A stretch of DNA of 21,437 bases, taken from positions 1 through 21,437 of IMG/VR virus record IMGVR_UViG_3300032053_000617; one strand, written 5' to 3'. The notes beneath the pieces were generated by a model. It worked only from the letters and a program-made list of their open reading frames with translations. It searched no databases and was not told the origin of the DNA. A program made the position numbers and the translations under genes. This document shows positions 11,769 to 21,437 of the stretch, piece after piece. The stretch is from a virus. Each line of letters begins with the position of its first letter. The first letter of the stretch is position 1.

Positions 11769-12407
11769 TTAAACCTTAATTATGTAGTTAACGTATGCGT
11801 TTATTGGTCGGGTTTCTGTATCGCCGCCGCCTGTTACTGAAGATGCAGGAGCAGTTAAAATATGACCATGACCATGACCAGATCCAGAAGTATTTGTAGA
11901 TGCATTCTCAAGTGGACTAAGCGCAAACCCAGCACCAAAACCATAAACTGCTCCGGAGATTGCAACAAATCTCCCCGTATTGTCAAAACCATGTGTATGC
12001 GTTCCATCACTTCCACCAACTGTTCCGGTGACAGTTTGCGCTGCCGTAGTTAAAGCCGTCGTAGGTCGCTTAGTAGCCTCACCCTGCACCGATCCAACTG
12101 CATCCCCAGTATTTCCACCCGCATTTGCGGCGGTTCTTCCCGCTCTGTCTGGATCACGCGCGATACCTCCATCGACTCCGCGAATGATTCGACCGCGATA
12201 GTCGGGAAGGTTGAACGTAGTCGAGCCATCTCCCGAACCATGAGCCGATGCTATTGCAGCGAATAATGCTGCATATGTAGCCCTGGAAACCGCTGCTCCG
12301 TTGCATAAAAGCCAGCCAGTCGGAGCCGTTGCACCAGCGAAAGCATGAACAGCACCAGAGGGAGCCGCTTCTGTGCTTATCGTTCCCAATTGAAATCTTG
12401 TCGCCAT
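11769..12407 (-). CDS. Phage tail-collar domain fibre protein (copy A)
   Basis: 212 residues with a clear tail-collar domain: AFAGATAPTGWLLCNGAAVS, then STTFNLPDYRGRIIRGVDGG and RDPDRAGRTAANAGGNTGD. A His/Gly-rich region follows (DGTHTHGFDN, SGHGHGHI), as in fibres that bind metal along the shaft, and the protein ends ETRPINAYVNYIIKV. Tail-collar proteins sit on short fibres and help contact the host. AAGGAGG lies upstream of ATG 12407. It is a paralogue of the gene at 12653-13156, nearly identical in the collar core and in the last 14 residues but diverged in the middle, which suggests duplication with diversification of the distal part. Confidence 0.88.
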   Translation of the reverse strand: MATRFQLGTISTEAAPSGAVHAFAGATAPTGWLLCNGAAVSRATYAALFAAIASAHGSGDGSTTFNLPDYRGRIIRGVDGGIARDPDRAGRTAANAGGNTGDAVGSVQGEATKRPTTALTTAAQTVTGTVGGSDGTHTHGFDNTGRFVAISGAVYGFGAGFALSPLENASTNTSGSGHGHGHILTAPASSVTGGGDTETRPINAYVNYIIKV

Positions 12408-12652: not shown

Positions 12653-13156
12653 TCAAATTTTAATGATGTAGTTAACGTATGCATTTATTGGACGGGTTTC
12701 GCTGCTAATTCTCGGTGTTCCATTGCTTCCGTCTGTAATTGGTCCACCTGTAGATTGCGAGCCGAAAAAAGAGTTAGGAGTTGTCGCAATAGACGCTGCG
12801 TTAGCACCGGCAGCAGGAACAGGCGATAAATGTATATGCCCTTGAATACAATCCGTTTGCACGCTCCCGACATTATCGCCGGTATTTCCCCCTGCATTCG
12901 AGGCGGTTCTCCCTGCTCTATCTGGATCTCGAGCAATACCGCCATCGACTCCGCGCAAGATTCGTCCACGATAATCGGGAAGGTTGAACGTGGTCGAGCC
13001 ATCTCCCGAACCATGAGCCGATGAAATGGTGCTAAATAGAGTAGCATAAACAGATCTTGAAACTGCTGAACCGTTACATAAGAGCCAGCCATCGGGAGCA
13101 GTTGCACCCGCGAATGGAAAGACAACACCGGAAGGAACAAAGTTAAGAAATGCCAT
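12653..13156 (-). CDS. Phage tail-collar domain fibre protein (copy B)
   Basis: 167 residues with the same collar core as the downstream paralogue: FPFAGATAPDGWLLCNGSAVS, TTFNLPDYRGRILRGVDGG, DPDRAGRTASNAGGNTGD, followed by QGHIHLSP and a C-terminal ISSETRPINAYVNYIIKI. It is shorter than copy A because the His/Gly-rich middle is largely missing. ATG 13156 directly follows the TAA of the preceding gene, with GGGAG upstream. Likely a second short-fibre or host-contact protein, or an alternative version. At DNA level a stretch around 12977-13021 matches 12204-12248 of copy A almost base for base. Confidence 0.87.
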   Translation of the reverse strand: MAFLNFVPSGVVFPFAGATAPDGWLLCNGSAVSRSVYATLFSTISSAHGSGDGSTTFNLPDYRGRILRGVDGGIARDPDRAGRTASNAGGNTGDNVGSVQTDCIQGHIHLSPVPAAGANAASIATTPNSFFGSQSTGGPITDGSNGTPRISSETRPINAYVNYIIKI

Positions 13157-14869: not shown

Positions 14870-15236
14870 GAACTACGCTCCCGTCCTCATAACAATTAAT
14901 GACTTCATTCCGAGCCTGAATCCTCATGCCATAAACATGATTTATCGATCGACCATTGGCCTGATTTATAAGCACTGCAAGATGCTCAAAGTTTACGAAA
15001 TCTGGTCCGGCGACTCGGACAAAGATTTTTGATCGCTCTCTAAAGGTCCAGTGCTTTCCTTCGATGTAAGCCCAAAGTAAACCGTCTTTGTTGACCGTCG
15101 AAGCCATGTCTTCGATTCGGGAAGCTGGCAACCACCCACCGACCTTCGTGGGCCGATTGACAAATTCAAATCCCCATCGAAACATCCACCGATCACCTGG
15201 ACTCTCACGAAGGGTTTTCGTGGGCTCATAGTGCAT
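14814..15236 (-). CDS. Hypothetical tail-region protein, 140 aa
   Basis: The frame opens as far as TTG 15242, but ATG 15236 (MHYEPTKTLRESPGDRWMFR) is the natural start. Its upstream AGGGG is distant and lies within the end of the endonuclease gene. The product is mixed, aromatic-rich (GFEFVNRPTKVGGWLPASR, DGLLWAYIEGKHWTF) and ends NDYLYPEWTRT, with no recognised motif. It overlaps the endonuclease by 11 nt upstream and the 102-aa gene by 56 nt downstream. If the endonuclease is a mobile insertion, this gene was previously directly downstream of the 223-aa structural gene and may have borrowed new translation signals from the insertion. Function not known. Confidence 0.65.
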   Translation of the reverse strand: MHYEPTKTLRESPGDRWMFRWGFEFVNRPTKVGGWLPASRIEDMASTVNKDGLLWAYIEGKHWTFRERSKIFVRVAGPDFVNFEHLAVLINQANGRSINHVYGMRIQARNEVINCYEDGSVVHEPRQLGNDYLYPEWTRT

Positions 15237-16158
15237 ATTCAAAACGATAACCCCTGTATGACGGCTTAGATCCTGTGCAGCATTGTTGTATTACCTTTTC
15301 CCCTTTTCCTTCAAAAAGTTTCAAAGATACCTCCTTTGCACACCTGAAAATTTCTCCGGTTTCTTTACACCGGACAGCTCTCGCTTTCAATGTCATATTA
15401 CCGCGAGCGAGCTTCGTAGCTTTGGCCTTATCTGTGATTTCTTTTCCGTAAACTCGACCAATTGCAGCCTCTGACATTTTAGCCTTTGTTTCTTCGGATA
15501 TCTTACGACCTAGAAGACCGTTTGGCTTGCCTTTTTTGGCTTTACTGATCTTTTCTCCGTGTTCAGGGCCGAAGTCATAACCGTTCATTTTTTCTGAAAG
15601 ATTGTTTCTTCTTTCATCTGCATTATTCCAGCCGAAATTATCCAAAGATCTTGTTGCTACAGATTTGGCTATCGCTTCTGGTGTATGTGACGCTTCGACA
15701 AGCTTTTTAATCAGTTCTGGATCGCGTGTTTTACCTGTCCAATAACGCGTATGGCTTCCACGTTCTCTCTTGGTCTTCTCACCCTTTTCCACAGTTTCAC
15801 GATTCCTATTTTTACCAAACCAATAAGAACCAGAACCTTTCCTCATTTCTGAGAGTCTTTTTCTGGAATGCTCATCCCAGTTTCGAGTGTCTCCCCCATA
15901 TCCTCCAGCGCATACATTTATCAGAATACAATTATGATCTAGTTTTCGAGTCGAAATTTCTCGTCTTTCAAGCTCAAATGAGGTTTGCTCATCTAAATTT
16001 TCGTGTAACATATGTACACTATAGTTATCACGAAAACTCTGTCGCCAAATTACTGATCGACCGTCTTTTCTCCATGCTCTATTACCGCATCCCTTTCCTA
16101 TATATTGAAAAAGTCCGTCAAAAGAAACATGGTGATAAACGTAAAATTTGCTGGGCAT
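15226..16158 (-). CDS. GIY-YIG homing endonuclease with NUMOD3 and IENR1-type motifs
   Basis: About 310 residues from ATG 16158. N-terminal nuclease: KFYVYHHVSFDGLFQYIGKG with NRAWR, the GIY-YIG pattern (here V-Y and Q-Y-I-G-K). Then basic DNA-recognition modules: GYDFGPEHGEKISKAKKGKP and RKISEETKAKMSEAAIGR (NUMOD3-like), and a C-terminal ARAVRCKETGEIFRCAKEVS with SYRGYRFEYAL (IENR1/NUMOD1-like). Homing endonucleases cut cognate genomes lacking the gene and spread through repair. GGAG lies 7 nt before ATG 16158 inside a hairpin. An upstream in-frame TTG extends the frame to 16230 but is not needed. It is freestanding between tail genes, both of which look intact; I see no intron boundary. Composition is more AT-rich and Lys-rich than the surrounding structural genes, consistent with horizontal entry. 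Confidence 0.85.
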   Translation of the reverse strand: MPSKFYVYHHVSFDGLFQYIGKGCGNRAWRKDGRSVIWRQSFRDNYSVHMLHENLDEQTSFELERREISTRKLDHNCILINVCAGGYGGDTRNWDEHSRKRLSEMRKGSGSYWFGKNRNRETVEKGEKTKRERGSHTRYWTGKTRDPELIKKLVEASHTPEAIAKSVATRSLDNFGWNNADERRNNLSEKMNGYDFGPEHGEKISKAKKGKPNGLLGRKISEETKAKMSEAAIGRVYGKEITDKAKATKLARGNMTLKARAVRCKETGEIFRCAKEVSLKLFEGKGEKVIQQCCTGSKPSYRGYRFEYAL

Positions 16159-16163
16159 AAAAG

Positions 16164-16182
16164 TTCTCCAAAATTTGGAAAA
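16164..16182 (-). promoter_or_regulatory. Hairpin that sequesters the endonuclease ribosome binding site
   Basis: On the leftward mRNA UUUUCCAA pairs with UUGGAGAA (eight pairs, one of them G-U) around a 3-nt AUU loop. The GGAG Shine-Dalgarno of the homing endonuclease (16166-16169) lies in the 3' arm, 7 nt before its ATG. In late transcripts reading through from the tail genes this would hide the ribosome site and limit nuclease synthesis. That reading follows from known RBS-blocking hairpins ahead of T4 homing endonucleases and is inferred here. Confidence 0.5.
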
Positions 16183-16233
16183 CTCTATCCTCAACATAAA
16201 ATCATTTAAACAAAATACGAAAAAGATCAATGA

Positions 16234-16905
16234 TTACGCCGAGTACGCAAAACTGGCCACAGTATCCCACTGAATAATTCCGCCATCGACGGCTGCAGTA
16301 TGCAGATAGCCGCGCATACGGATATGACCACGGTTGCCAAGAACAGTATCGGAAGCTTTTCCGATCTTTCCTGTGACGGGTGCGCTAGCGTCAACTTCGC
16401 TTGATCCGTTCCAGTAGGACGCCGCATCGATGTGCATGCTATGAGCATCTCCGAGTGAGAGACCATCGAGGCCGCTATAGTCTTTTCCGAATATTCGCAT
16501 CTGTCCAGTCGCCTCGCGTGTGAAGGCAAACTGAGAAGCCGTTGCAACATCCCACGACATGTCGATACGAATTCCGCGGGATAGGCCATCAGCATTATTC
16601 GCTGTCGCTCCAGTGTCGGCAGCACCGTAGGCGCCGATTGTGGTGAAATCTGCACCCGAGCTATTCGCTCCGCCATAGGTGCCAGAAAACGTAGCAAGGT
16701 AGAATTTCACATCGGTCACAGGATCGACCACAGCATCGTGGCGAATATAAATATCTTGATGTCCAGTGTTCGCTGATTGCAGCGTCAAAGGGGCGTACTG
16801 GCCATTAGTTACCTGTCCAAGGTCCAATCCTGTGCTCCCCCCCGCCAATGTGTCGGATACGTTCGCACCAGTAATCGTTTCTGATATGGTTAATGTTACA
16901 GCCAA
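16234..16905 (-). CDS. Virion structural protein (tail-region), 223 aa, TTG start
   Basis: 223 residues, Cys-free, rich in Ala, Gly, Ser and Thr. N terminus MAVTLTISETITGANVSDTL; middle TGHQDIYIRHDAVVDPVTDV and ATFSGTYGGANSSGADF; C terminus GNRGHIRMRGYLHTAAVDGG, ending TVASFAYSA. The composition and place among tail genes indicate a structural protein. The start is a TTG at 16905, supported by AGGGGA about 6 nt upstream; no ATG lies near the N terminus. The stop is followed by the short leader of the homing endonuclease. Exact role (hub, fibre base or head decoration) is not visible. Confidence 0.7.
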   Translation of the reverse strand: MAVTLTISETITGANVSDTLAGGSTGLDLGQVTNGQYAPLTLQSANTGHQDIYIRHDAVVDPVTDVKFYLATFSGTYGGANSSGADFTTIGAYGAADTGATANNADGLSRGIRIDMSWDVATASQFAFTREATGQMRIFGKDYSGLDGLSLGDAHSMHIDAASYWNGSSEVDASAPVTGKIGKASDTVLGNRGHIRMRGYLHTAAVDGGIIQWDTVASFAYSA

Positions 16906-16916
16906 GGTTATTCCCC

Positions 16917-18623
16917 TTATTCTTGAGTTATACTTTGATTATATCCGCCCACTGTACCAGAATATCCTGGAGTATATCCACTGAAAGGGAGAAGTTGCAT
17001 GCACCACAATGTGACCGGAATTTGAATGCCTGCAGGATCATATCCCTTTGATCTTATCATTGCCGGTACATTCTCATATATCACCGATCCTATCTCAATA
17101 TTCAAAAAGACAAAATCTCCAACATCTAATAGTAATGCACGCCATGTTAAAGAGCATTCGACAATTTCAAAAAGAGAGGAAGAAATTCTGAGGATTTCTA
17201 TGAGCTGATATTGAACGTCGGAAAGGATATAAAGGTTCGGAAACTCGATCCGCTTTGAAATGAACCGTCCTATTTGAGTAAAGCTTGCAGCATTGTTGTA
17301 TATGCTTGAGCTCCGAGCCTGTTCATTACGGTTCGGGTTAAAATCAAAGGTAGCTTGCGCACGGTTAAAATTGTTTCTCTCATCGGTTTTCGGCTTAAGG
17401 CTTTTCTCGACGACATCCCAATTTTTAACCGTGAAAGAAGGGGAGGCATTCCAATTTTCAAAGTGCAGACTATTAATCTTGAGTTTTAGGTTTTCATCGA
17501 CGAAAGCCTCAAGCCTGACCTGTTCCAAAAGCGATAGGGCAAACTCCATCACTGGCTTCGGTTCATTCTCCCATATACGGCTCTTGATCGTCGATATTGC
17601 CGATTGTGCAGGACTAGCCTTATCTCTGAACGTCGCCCAATTCGCATCGAAGTCTCCGGATAGAGCGAGCCCTTGCGTGATCAGAATATCCCTGGCCTGC
17701 CATACGATATTATCGTCATATGCTCCAAGGTCTTTCCCCTTGACTCTGACTAGAAATTTATCGTCTTTTTCGAAGAAATATTTATTGTTTCCTTCGGTCC
17801 AGTTTTTTGAATTCTGCTTTATTTCAAAATAGTTGTTGTTGACGTTAACGTTCACTATGTCTAATGGATCGACTAGAAAAAATACGTCAGACTTCTGGAA
17901 ATAAACATTATTAGGATCAAAGTAAGATAAATCATGCTCGGCTATCCTCACCTTCAAATTGTTTCGCGATCCGCCTATGACGTTCGCTGAACCGCCATTC
18001 AAAATATAGACCGGGATGACTGCTGGATCTGGATCGAGATTCACTGTCCAATCGCCATAAATAACCGGAAGTATTTGGCCAGCTATATTATCGGCTAGAT
18101 CCGGATATACTCCCGTGGTTAAAGCGGTCTTGGGAAAGGCCACATTAAGCAATTCGTAGTCGTCTCGAGCGATGAAAGTAACCGAATAAGTGCCTCGAGA
18201 GAATCCGCCTACCTCTGTGATCTTGCCTTTGAAAATTGTGAAGTATGTCGATGCTTGTTGAGCGATCCCTATCTTGACCTGGATCTGCCGACCGATGAAA
18301 GAGTTGTAGGTTGCACCGCCCGGAAGGTAGGTATTGAATCTCCCATCGGCATTGGATAGCTCTAGCGTGATCGTCGAGAATTGCAGCGTGGGAGACAACC
18401 ATTCCCCAACGGTTCTCGCGATCGTCGGAAACACAAGCAGGGCCTCGTAAAAAGTATTCCCTACATATTTGTTTCGATCGCTCGCATAAATGAATCCGCC
18501 TCCCGGCTTTTCTATTTCAACGACCATTTCGATCCGCGTGGAAAAATTGTCGGCACAATTATTCAGCAAGCTCTGGTCGAGAACCGTTGCTGTCAGATAG
18601 CTTCGTCGATCGCTTCCGCTCAT
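16917..18623 (-). CDS. Tail tip/hub-like structural protein, 568 aa
   Basis: Starts MSGSDRRSYLTATVLDQSLL, with ATG 18623 sharing one base with the previous stop (TAATG). The N-terminal third is beta-rich (TRIEMVVEIEKPGGGFIYAS, STITLELSNADGRFNTYLPG, QIQVKIGIAQ), like the hub or tip proteins that cap a siphovirus tail; the middle includes AGQILPVIYGDWTVN and repeated F-x-K-x-D/N segments. The C-terminal half has ESKLRI-like strands (DENLKLKINSLHFEN) and RISSSLFEIVECSLTW. It lies two genes after the tape measure, the usual location of tail tip or baseplate hub genes. The family is not named with confidence. No signal peptide or enzymatic motif is seen. Confidence 0.65.
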   Translation of the reverse strand: MSGSDRRSYLTATVLDQSLLNNCADNFSTRIEMVVEIEKPGGGFIYASDRNKYVGNTFYEALLVFPTIARTVGEWLSPTLQFSTITLELSNADGRFNTYLPGGATYNSFIGRQIQVKIGIAQQASTYFTIFKGKITEVGGFSRGTYSVTFIARDDYELLNVAFPKTALTTGVYPDLADNIAGQILPVIYGDWTVNLDPDPAVIPVYILNGGSANVIGGSRNNLKVRIAEHDLSYFDPNNVYFQKSDVFFLVDPLDIVNVNVNNNYFEIKQNSKNWTEGNNKYFFEKDDKFLVRVKGKDLGAYDDNIVWQARDILITQGLALSGDFDANWATFRDKASPAQSAISTIKSRIWENEPKPVMEFALSLLEQVRLEAFVDENLKLKINSLHFENWNASPSFTVKNWDVVEKSLKPKTDERNNFNRAQATFDFNPNRNEQARSSSIYNNAASFTQIGRFISKRIEFPNLYILSDVQYQLIEILRISSSLFEIVECSLTWRALLLDVGDFVFLNIEIGSVIYENVPAMIRSKGYDPAGIQIPVTLWCMQLLPFSGYTPGYSGTVGGYNQSITQE

Positions 18624-20188
18624 TAAAGTGCCTCATCGACATTGACGTCCATATCAATATAGTCGGCTGTCTCAGAAATTGCTTGGTGATTCTCTACAGG
18701 AATCTCGCTCAACTTGCCGAACACAGCGAACCGCGACGCATACTGAGGCGTCGGAATCCAAAGGCATTTTAGCGAAGTCCGTGCGGTATCGATTACAGAT
18801 ACAAGGCTAGAGTAATTCTCTCGCAAGTAGTTCAGCTTCCTAAAGGAAAGAGCAACCGCTCGCTTGAGAGCTCTGTCATTACTAACCGATGAATATCCTT
18901 CGGTTCGGATTCGATCCGCAAAATGCGTTTTTCTTCGAACTACTTGATCGGTAAAACATTCGCCATTAAAAATGATCGAAGGGCCAAAGACGATCGTACC
19001 GATCTCAATAAATCCATTTGGGTTAGTGGAGTCATTGATCAGTAATCGCCAATATCGATAGGAATTGAGAGGAAGAAATTCAGAGATCCAATACATATTT
19101 TCAGTTTCAACGAAGAGCGTTTCCGATAGGGGAATGGATGAGAATCCAACATCATTCGATCCCTGCAAAGTAACGACCGCCGAAGTCGTGAAATTGTGTC
19201 CCAGAATCGCAAGCGTATCGTTGAAAATACCTTGGCTTATCTGAGTATCGCATTGCAGAGTTATAGTCGTATTTAGCGACCGGTAAACTTGCTCTACTAT
19301 ATCCGTATTAACGTTATTAACACCCCTATCTCCACTCGCGGTTCCACCAGCAACAACCGTCCAGTTTGTTCCACTGGTTCCACGCGAAGGGAAGTCGCAG
19401 AGGATGCGGAGGTTCGTCGTGTTGTAAATGGCGAAAAGAAGTTGGGAATTGAGTTTGTAAGCCGAACTTCTTAAGAGCTGCGACCTGATCGCAAAGTCAT
19501 CGTATATCTGCCTTCGCATCTGTGATCTGGTGATCTTGGAAGCGTTGACAATTTTGCGATCAAGCTGAGTATTAACCGCACGAGCCTTTTCGAGTCGGCG
19601 ATCAAGCTGCTGGTACATGTGAGCACAAATGAATGGACCTAAGTAGGGCTCAGTCAAATAGGCGCTAAGTAAATAGCCGCCGCATGATTGGTGCGAGATA
19701 GGACCTCTGCCCATTTCTTGAGCAGTGACCTTTGATCCATTCGTGATGAACCGAGCAAGCTGAGTTGGAATCTCTCGAGTCTTCTCAAGCTTGCGCTGGA
19801 TCTGTGTGGGGATTGCAAAATCGTCCGTCAAACGGCGATCGAGCTGAGATGGGACCAATGATAGCCCGACCGTGGTCCGATCGATCTGGGAGCGAATTGG
19901 GCTAGCAGTAGAGAGTTGTCGATCCATTTGCGATCTGACCGAACTGCTCGATACGATGGATCGGTCAAGTTGCTGCTTTATTGGCACAAGTCCAGAATCA
20001 ATACGTCTGTCAAGTTGACTGCGAATGCTGGTGATAGTTTCGATCCGGGCAGCAAGCTGAGTTTTAACCGGAAACGATCCAATGATCTGCCGCTGCATCT
20101 GGGAAGGTGTCGCGCCGGTCCCAAAACCAGCAAGGTACGGAACCGTCAAATAGGCTGTCTCGAGGTAGCCAAAAAAAGTGCTGATCAT
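18623..20188 (-). CDS. Tail protein with 14-residue QxxR repeats and a C-terminal beta-sandwich-like domain
   Basis: 521 residues. Residues 30-160 and 194-240 are a series of 14-residue units opening Q-[LMI]-x-R (QLDRR, QMDRQ, QIDRT, QLARF and so on). Each block is preceded by a Y-L-x-x-A-Y-L-T-x-P-Y-L motif (8-19 and 172-183). The middle contains LQGSNDVGF, then YRYWRLLINDSTNPNGFIEIG, like the F5/8-type carbohydrate-binding folds found in phage tail proteins. The C terminus is alpha/beta with KLNYLRENYSSL and ends MDVNVDEAL. The start overlaps the tape-measure stop by ATGA. It follows the tape measure, so a distal-tail or tip role is likely; the repeat itself is not one I can assign to a family. 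Repeat organisation is directly visible; the carbohydrate-binding idea is inferred. Confidence 0.75.
   Translation of the reverse strand: MISTFFGYLETAYLTVPYLAGFGTGATPSQMQRQIIGSFPVKTQLAARIETITSIRSQLDRRIDSGLVPIKQQLDRSIVSSSSVRSQMDRQLSTASPIRSQIDRTTVGLSLVPSQLDRRLTDDFAIPTQIQRKLEKTREIPTQLARFITNGSKVTAQEMGRGPISHQSCGGYLLSAYLTEPYLGPFICAHMYQQLDRRLEKARAVNTQLDRKIVNASKITRSQMRRQIYDDFAIRSQLLRSSAYKLNSQLLFAIYNTTNLRILCDFPSRGTSGTNWTVVAGGTASGDRGVNNVNTDIVEQVYRSLNTTITLQCDTQISQGIFNDTLAILGHNFTTSAVVTLQGSNDVGFSSIPLSETLFVETENMYWISEFLPLNSYRYWRLLINDSTNPNGFIEIGTIVFGPSIIFNGECFTDQVVRRKTHFADRIRTEGYSSVSNDRALKRAVALSFRKLNYLRENYSSLVSVIDTARTSLKCLWIPTPQYASRFAVFGKLSEIPVENHQAISETADYIDMDVNVDEAL
19469..20101 (-). repeat. 42-bp (14-codon) degenerate repeat array, interrupted
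   Basis: In-frame repeat units of 42 nt (two of 45 nt) encode Q-[LMI]-x-R motifs at residues 30, 44, 58, 73, 87, 101, 115, 129, 143 and 157, then, after a 36-residue break containing the second AYLTxPYL motif, at 194, 208, 223 and 237. Units are diverged at DNA level, so the array is old and under protein-level selection rather than a fresh tandem expansion. Confidence 0.85.
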
Positions 20189-21437
20189 CGGATGCCTTTC
20201 TGGCTCAGAACGAATTTACCATCGAGCGATGCCCTCTTTAGTTCTTCGCTCATTCTGGGTATGAGTGTTCCTCGGATGTAGCCTTCGTCCATGGAAGTCT
20301 TCGCTTCGACATTTATTTCAAATGACATATTATACGTATTCGATCCGCCGAGCGAGGAACCGTTGTTCATTGCCCTAAGATTATCCAGGCCGATCGATTG
20401 AACCGCTGGACGGCTCATAACAAACTCGCCCGGAGTTAGCATCGCAGGCACTGTATCAGTTCCCATATTAGGGACCGGGCCACCGAGAGCGAACCGATTG
20501 TTTTTGAACATCGACATAATCATATCATTAAAGACTTTGTCCTTGACGACTTCCCACATTGCCTTAAGGGGATTCGCATTGTTGAATACATCGCCCAACC
20601 AATCTCCAGCGCCCTGAGCAGCTCCAGAAACTTGGTCTATTACAGCTTGACCAGCATCGCCAAGGTCTTGCAAGACTCCGCTTACTGCCTTACCTCCGCC
20701 TTTCACAATCGCCCCAAGCGTTCCACCTGCGAATTGAGGCAGCTCAAGCTCTCCTTTCAAAATTTGATCGACCAGGGCGCGAACCTTAGGATCATCCATT
20801 TTCGATCGCGGTATGATTGCCTCTCCCGGCGAAAGCATGGCTAGGATGCGATCATTCTGTAGCGAATCGCCTTTGATCTTGGCTTGACCGGGGACCAATC
20901 CCCCGCTTGCGAAGGACATAAAAGGAATGTCGATTCCTAAAGCTTTTTCAACGGTTCCTTTTCCTCCCATATCGACCTTGAATATTTTGGCAAAAAGGTT
21001 CGAAGGATCTAGTTTGTCGAATATATTTTTCAGGAAATTACCGATTCCGCTTAAGCCTGATTTGAGGCTTTCCCAAATTTGAGTCCCTATATTGCCAAAG
21101 ATAGCTCCGGCTTGCTGTATCCCGTTTTTTAGTCCTTCCCATATTTTGGAGCCAAGCCCTACCGCTTGATCAAAAACATCTTTGACGAATTGGAATGCGC
21201 CTTGAACTATTCCCGCTAGACCGTCGAAAAGGTCTTTCACATATTGGAATGCAGTCATCACAACCGAAATGATAGGGCCGATCACATTGTCATAAACCCA
21301 TACGAAGACGCTCCTGATTCCATCGATAATTGGCTTGAAAATATTGTCGTTGATCCAATTAAATACAGCCTTATAAGCATCGATAATTGGCTTGAAAATA
21401 TTGTCGTTGATCCAATTAAATACAGCCTTATAAGCAT
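20185..21437 (-). CDS. Phage tape-measure protein (5' end beyond window)
   Basis: 417 residues remain and the frame is open to the window edge, so the N terminus is missing; the GTG at 21285 is not the true start. From the edge: two identical 19-residue units (AYKAVFNWINDNIFKPIID), a degenerate third (GIRSVFVWVYDNVIGPIIS), then related helical units (TAFQYVKDLFDGLAG, GAFQFVKDVFDQAVG), as in the repeat body of tape measures. The C-terminal part carries two GG-x-V-P...PGE blocks (SGGLVPGQAKIKGDSLQND with AMLSPGEAIIPR, and GGPVPNMGTDTVPAMLTPGE), the usual end of phage tape measures, where the central helix meets the tail tip. It fixes tail length and assists DNA ejection. The stop overlaps the next gene by ATGA. 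High confidence. Confidence 0.9.
   Translation of the reverse strand, partial: AYKAVFNWINDNIFKPIIDAYKAVFNWINDNIFKPIIDGIRSVFVWVYDNVIGPIISVVMTAFQYVKDLFDGLAGIVQGAFQFVKDVFDQAVGLGSKIWEGLKNGIQQAGAIFGNIGTQIWESLKSGLSGIGNFLKNIFDKLDPSNLFAKIFKVDMGGKGTVEKALGIDIPFMSFASGGLVPGQAKIKGDSLQNDRILAMLSPGEAIIPRSKMDDPKVRALVDQILKGELELPQFAGGTLGAIVKGGGKAVSGVLQDLGDAGQAVIDQVSGAAQGAGDWLGDVFNNANPLKAMWEVVKDKVFNDMIMSMFKNNRFALGGPVPNMGTDTVPAMLTPGEFVMSRPAVQSIGLDNLRAMNNGSSLGGSNTYNMSFEINVEAKTSMDEGYIRGTLIPRMSEELKRASLDGKFVLSQKGIR
21324..21437 (-). repeat. Perfect 57-bp tandem repeat (19 codons) in the tape-measure gene
   Basis: Two identical 57-bp copies lie at 21324-21380 and 21381-21437, each starting CGATAATTGG and ending TATAAGCAT. 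The second copy ends exactly at the window edge, so the true copy number is unknown. The unit is 19 codons, in frame, and encodes the AYKAVFNWIN...IID helix repeat. Each copy would change tail length slightly. Confidence 0.95.

Follow-up and report, generated by a model that had tools for sequence, protein, structure and literature searches.

The tail-tip gene of the virus recorded as IMGVR_UViG_3300032053_000617 in IMG/VR encodes a protein with an N-terminal array of short tandem repeats, and among the relatives of this protein the part of the array that adjoins the C-terminal domains holds 2, 5 or 8 units (3k+2) in 66 of 67 arrays counted. The window studied here is the whole stretch of DNA analysed, 21,437 nucleotides covering positions 1 to 21,437 of that record. 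The protein, which we call REP (521 aa; 18623..20188, minus strand, ATG start), joins its array of strand repeats to a C-terminus of the phrog_8610 type. We consider it very likely that REP belongs to the tail tip and that its beta-repeat is genuine and extendable. A more specific reading of the sequences, to which we give slightly less than an even chance, is that the array forms an extendable three-sided beta-solenoid stalk with three units (~43 aa) per turn.

The array is divided into two blocks. A first-pass annotation of the window span 19469-20188, which corresponds to REP residues 1-240, had proposed that each block is led by a YLxxAYLTxPYL motif, and the motif is indeed found exactly at residues 8-19 (YLETAYLTVPYL; 20132..20167, minus strand) and 172-183 (YLLSAYLTEPYL; 19640..19675, minus strand). 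The first copy opens block 1, with 10 units of 14/15 residues according to the unit profile (residues 27-163; 19700..20110, minus strand), whereas the second opens block 2, with 5 units (residues 191-254; 19427..19618, minus strand) and a last spacing of 12. Two cysteines, C169 and C188, flank the second motif (19625..19684, minus strand) as a possible disulfide or metal clasp, which the N-terminal motif does not have. Both are present in 49 of 69 family members, one in 5 and none in 15, and the pair is missing from all untruncated single-block members; the sequences suggest that it may act as a clasp between the blocks. Downstream of the array follow a discoidin/CBM32-like beta-sandwich (residues 255-402; 18983..19426, minus strand) and a C-terminal alpha/beta domain (residues 405-521; 18626..18976, minus strand).

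The repeat stands well above chance expectation. Exact Q[LMI]xR motifs occur 12 times in REP. When residues 1-270 were shuffled 20,000 times, the motif appeared 0.49 times on average and never more than 5 times; nine of the spacings in REP are of 13-15 residues, against at most one in the shuffles. Self-identity has maxima at lags 14 and 28 (0.188 and 0.157, respectively) and lies between 0.04 and 0.09 at most other lags. The exact motifs lie at residues 30, 58, 73, 87, 101, 115, 129 and 143 in block 1 and at 194, 208, 223 and 237 in block 2 (8+4). A unit profile learned from the relatives recovers 15 units (10+5), with Gln or Glu at 30, 44, 58, 73, 87, 101, 115, 129, 143 and 158, and Gln at 194, 208, 223, 237 and 249. 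The 14 QxxR units and the 10+4 split first described are thus replaced by these counts, and the near-fixed spacing of 14 residues is in fact 14 or 15, while almost every array has a spacing of 12 ahead of its final unit. The Gln/Arg pair that had been taken to define the unit is characteristic of the clade of the window, where Arg at +3 is prominent, and of some others, but across the family this Arg is found in only 32% of units; the key position is Gln (80%) or Glu (17%), on the polar face, with Ile, Leu or Val five residues later.

Over 773 units, hydrophobic residues occupy the odd offsets (-3, -1, +1, +5) and polar ones the even offsets (Gln/Glu at 0, and +2), and the hydrophobic moment over -3 to +5 peaks at 180 degrees. 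On this pattern, the unit is a predicted nine-residue amphipathic beta-strand with a loop of 5-6 residues. The absence of a named family, as first supposed, was borne out: no model in Pfam, NCBIfam or PHROG matches the repeat unit (46 members were tested against NCBIfam, Pfam and Dit PHROGs), and a literature search gave no account of it. Beta repeats of 14 residues are also found in the head of YadA-type proteins (Hep_Hag), but the REP units are Gln-anchored, alternate between 14 and 15 residues with a period of three units, and have no Pfam match.

The rule of three is strictest in block 2. Its sole exception, L052, is a single-block protein with 12 units, and all other single-block proteins also fit 3k+2; the counts of two arrays (L028 and L062) were changed from 1 to 2 after inspection by eye. 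Measured from the second motif to a conserved YNTTNLRIL junction, the distances fall into groups at about 40, 83 and 127 residues, with none between, and a tree of the C-terminal part implies at least 18 changes in the block 2 count. For block 1, all but one of the 54 arrays (53) have a count of 3k or 3k+1, the exception being L036 with 8 units; here the counts of four arrays with a degenerate last unit (L006, L022, L038 and L098) were corrected by eye. Relatives may differ by a single unit in block 1 (10 in the window and 9 in L004; 10 in L018 and 9 in L031), so such changes are mutationally possible, whereas none was seen in block 2 among the relatives' arrays counted. Taken as a whole, the family offers a natural series of lengths from 2 to more than 20 units, whose shortest members, L061, L063 and L130, have two.

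The period of three is also written in the units themselves. In 13 diverged arrays with the end units removed, lag 3 alone gives a clearly positive similarity between units (0.353, p < 0.0005), with values of -0.06 at lag 1 and 0.06 at lag 2, and the pattern of 14- and 15-residue spacings recurs at lag 3 as well (p 0.0005 over 42 arrays and 0.04 over these 13). Moreover, L015 carries a 132-bp tandem repeat (2.2 copies, 99% identical) that spans exactly three units (44 aa). The lag-3 similarity could, however, derive partly from duplication steps of three units rather than from structure.

These observations can be brought together if the array is a solenoid with three units per turn. The residues from -3 to +5 around the conserved Gln would form an amphipathic beta-strand and the remaining 5-6 residues a turn, with one unit per face, the hydrophobic side inward and a Gln/Glu ladder outward. 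The YLxxxYLxxPYL segments would cap the array, together with the Cys pair between the blocks. The gain or loss of a whole turn, that is three units, would change the length of the stalk without moving the point at which the chain enters the C-terminal core, and block 2, fixed at both ends, would therefore keep 3k+2 units. Three units per turn would thus explain why copy numbers follow the rule, why units resemble each other at lag 3 and why the constraint is tighter in the block fixed at both ends. The 3k+2 counts and lag-3 signals are what an integral number of units per turn with a conserved register would give in a beta-solenoid.

Three repeat elements per turn are known from the left-handed beta-helix and from choline-binding modules, with units of 6 or about 20 residues. 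The geometry proposed for REP is alike, but its units have 14/15 residues and show no Pfam similarity to those families. That REP represents a solenoid class of its own in tailed phages, with one-strand units of 14/15 residues, three per turn and a length evolving in whole turns, is a tentative proposal to which we give a little less than an even chance. To our knowledge, no known beta-solenoid is as wide as a three-sided coil of 43 residues built from 9-residue strands would be.

Structure prediction was less conclusive for the array than for the rest of the protein. AF2 was run on monomers, once with the full window protein and 46 relatives and once with an 8-unit block and 62 relatives; in both models the C-terminus is confident while the array has a pLDDT below 50. 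The first model places a strand at offsets -1 to +5 in 6-7 of the first 9 units of the window protein, at low confidence, and the second has no strands in the array. Of the two folds first suggested, the ladder keeps the 180-degree alternation and the coincidence of these low-confidence strands with the units in its favour, with the low pLDDT against it. The coiled or helical element finds no support, as neither model shows helix in the array and the hydrophobic moment reaches 9.1 at 100 degrees versus 13.8 at 180. Disorder in such predictions had been named as an outcome that would count against a regular repeat, and with a pLDDT below 50 in both models this outcome was partly observed. Since confident parallel stacked strands are absent, we propose only that REP works like a beta-solenoid and do not file it as a member of that class. 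Covariation between units in volume, hydropathy and charge likewise gave no clear contact map, and its sole strong lag-1 signal came from a residue counted twice. Also to be set against the solenoid are the single-unit differences in block 1, the exceptions L052 and L036, and the fact that the length of the array does not track that of the tape-measure protein (rho 0.11, n 12). This last result rules out the array as a ruler of tail length.

Arrays that remain unfolded in monomer models are expected of intertwined fibres, and strand-loop units of 14/15 residues with an evolving copy number are fibre-like, so that an oligomeric shaft (a homotrimer, beta-prism or triple beta-spiral) folding only in the assembly deserves consideration. 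The equivalent faces of a threefold homotrimer, however, need neither steps of three nor similarity confined to lag 3, and no fibre-family match was found; we regard such a shaft as unlikely, at about one chance in four. A less probable arrangement is an array that wraps a symmetric ring at the tail tip, with three units per subunit sector (e.g. 60 degrees in a hexamer), which would account both for the rule and for the failure of the monomer models. Dit forms hexameric rings, whereas Tal/hub proteins are trimeric (PMC7291167), and REP lies at the Dit position; but there is no direct sign of wrapping, and two-unit members exist, one of which (L061) keeps the same gene order.

The steps of three might also be a mutational habit only, arising through slippage between three-unit repeats that are more alike, as the fresh duplication in L015 would illustrate. 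Changes by one unit are seen in block 1 and so are mutationally possible, yet block 2 has kept 3k+2 through at least 18 changes in lineages whose units are highly diverged, which makes this reading quite improbable. We give an equally low probability to a linker, disordered or elastic, along which docking motifs are evenly spaced. The pLDDT below 50 and the second, strandless model would fit such a linker, as would an array pN that drifts 2-5 times faster than that of the C-terminus; however, a pN/pS of about 0.2 in the array and the strict alternation of the strands make it unlikely, and neither the lag-3 loop pattern nor the 3k+2 rule would be expected of it. The three-sided solenoid, although the monomer models do not fold it, is our preferred reading and is favoured by counts of 2, 5 or 8 in 66 of 67 arrays, by the changes on the tree, by the lag-3 signals and by the L015 duplication.

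The C-terminal half of REP has recognizable relatives. The PHROG 8610 profile matches 45 of 46 members across the discoidin domain and the region after it (best E-value 4.9e-20; 1.7e-9 for the window protein), and the same PHROG contains gp39 and gp40 of Caulobacter phage Sansa (AKU43443 and AKU43444; 1.6e-89 and 8.9e-88), to which this half is therefore homologous. A Sansa protein in BFVD has a predicted fold like that of the REP C-terminus (TM-score by target 0.72), and gp39 and gp40, like REP, are encoded downstream of the tape measure among the tail-tip genes. The two Sansa proteins, however, are copies of 264 and 263 aa that follow a 543-aa gene (gp38), with neither an N-terminal array nor a YL motif, whereas REP has 521 aa with an array at 27-254 and so departs from the compact form of 260-270 aa. 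The link is the shared PHROG; a direct HHalign of REP with gp39/gp40 gave a 24-column match with a probability of 2%. Since the Sansa proteins have no array, this would be either an addition to a compact core or a loss in Sansa.

Both AF2 runs modelled residues 255-402 confidently, most of the region reaching a pLDDT of about 90 or more. In a Foldseek search of the PDB these residues matched CBM32/F5-8C domains with E-values from 1e-5 to 1e-4, a probability of 1.00 and TM-scores by target of 0.6-0.75, and the jelly-roll beta-sandwich of these discoidin domains is seen in model regions of mostly 90+ pLDDT. The predicted folds are alike at about 7-20% identity, with no Pfam match. The domain at 405-521 has a pLDDT mostly of 87-92, except at about 421-440, and alone gave no family match; the discoidin domain, itself confidently modelled, dominates the Foldseek lists for the modelled C-terminus. 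From gene position, the last domain may be a tail-ring (Dit-like) anchor.

This position is well conserved. In all 20 loci examined, REP lies directly after the tape-measure gene, in agreement with the first assignment of a repeated structural step to a tail protein, and is followed by a hub-like protein of ~570 aa and a protein of ~225 aa. In the window these are the C-terminal part of the tape-measure protein (20185..21435, minus strand), which runs off the window end, a hub-like protein of 568 aa (16917..18623, minus strand) and a conserved tail-operon protein of 223 aa (16234..16905, minus strand). PHROG tape-measure matches reach E 3e-16, and the hub identity rests on one weak match to phrog_196 ('baseplate hub') in 1 of 18 members. 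In the majority of siphophages examined, tmp is followed by the Dit gene (PMC7291167), and REP is therefore at the Dit position, in all 20 loci between the tape measure and a hub or Tal candidate identified by that one weak match. Like REP, Dit and 'evolved Dit' proteins are encoded directly behind tmp and ahead of a hub-like gene, and a domain of carbohydrate-binding type is a further shared trait (PMC7291167). However, their domain order is unlike that of REP, and no Pfam, NCBIfam or Dit PHROG sequence match (Sipho_tail/Dit) was found in 46 members. We know of no Dit with a comparable repeat array.

About 70 relatives of REP were found, almost all on contigs of uncultured viruses; 61 loci came from an alignment-based scan of IMG/VR, and a further scan yielded 78, mostly on the same contigs. 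No match was obtained by tblastn with four different family queries in 50,697 phage records. Sequence searches of the PDB, for which the REP protein and profiles of three proteins (REP, hub-like and 223-aa) served as queries, gave nothing below E 0.1, and PADLOC gave nothing meaningful. The only match in 84,980 prokaryote genomes, L068, is a 7-kb contig in a Bacteroidetes-labelled MAG, which may be a free virus binned with its host.

Closely related viruses (the window and L002; L083 and L085) are patchily mosaic along the tail operon. The window and L002 (1119-2681) show no differences in about 800 bp of the C-terminal half, but 12% of synonymous sites differ in their arrays. Both pairs look mosaic at the array border, but mismatches are patchy along the region, and the idea of the array as a privately recombining module was rejected. 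The L002 alignment also breaks at a NUMOD3-containing homing endonuclease gene (window 15226-16230, minus strand; Pfam 8.8e-11, phrog_314 1.1e-13), which sits between the 223-aa gene and the next gene of the tail operon and has a homologue at the same place in L025 (9429-10148). Elsewhere in the window, a perfect 57-bp tandem repeat of 2.1 copies (21321-21437) lies in the tape-measure gene at the contig end, possibly as a real repeat of that protein or as an assembly end effect, and two proteins with phage-tail-collar domains (12653-13156 and 11769-12407, minus strand; Pfam 9.5e-23 and 7.4e-23) are possibly a duplication.

A rule of copy number can seldom be read from sequence alone, and counts of 2, 5 and 8 kept through at least 18 changes predict the geometry of a turn before any structure. 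The lineage has no match in the 50,697 phage records searched, and its tail tip would therefore otherwise go unannotated. An adjustable stalk at this place would determine how far the discoidin domain, or the N-terminal cap, reaches or where it stands with respect to the host envelope. If the three-sided solenoid is true, a large lineage of uncultured tailed phages would use it as a tail-tip stalk, and the family would provide a new repeat fold together with a natural series of stalk lengths for studying reach against the host surface.
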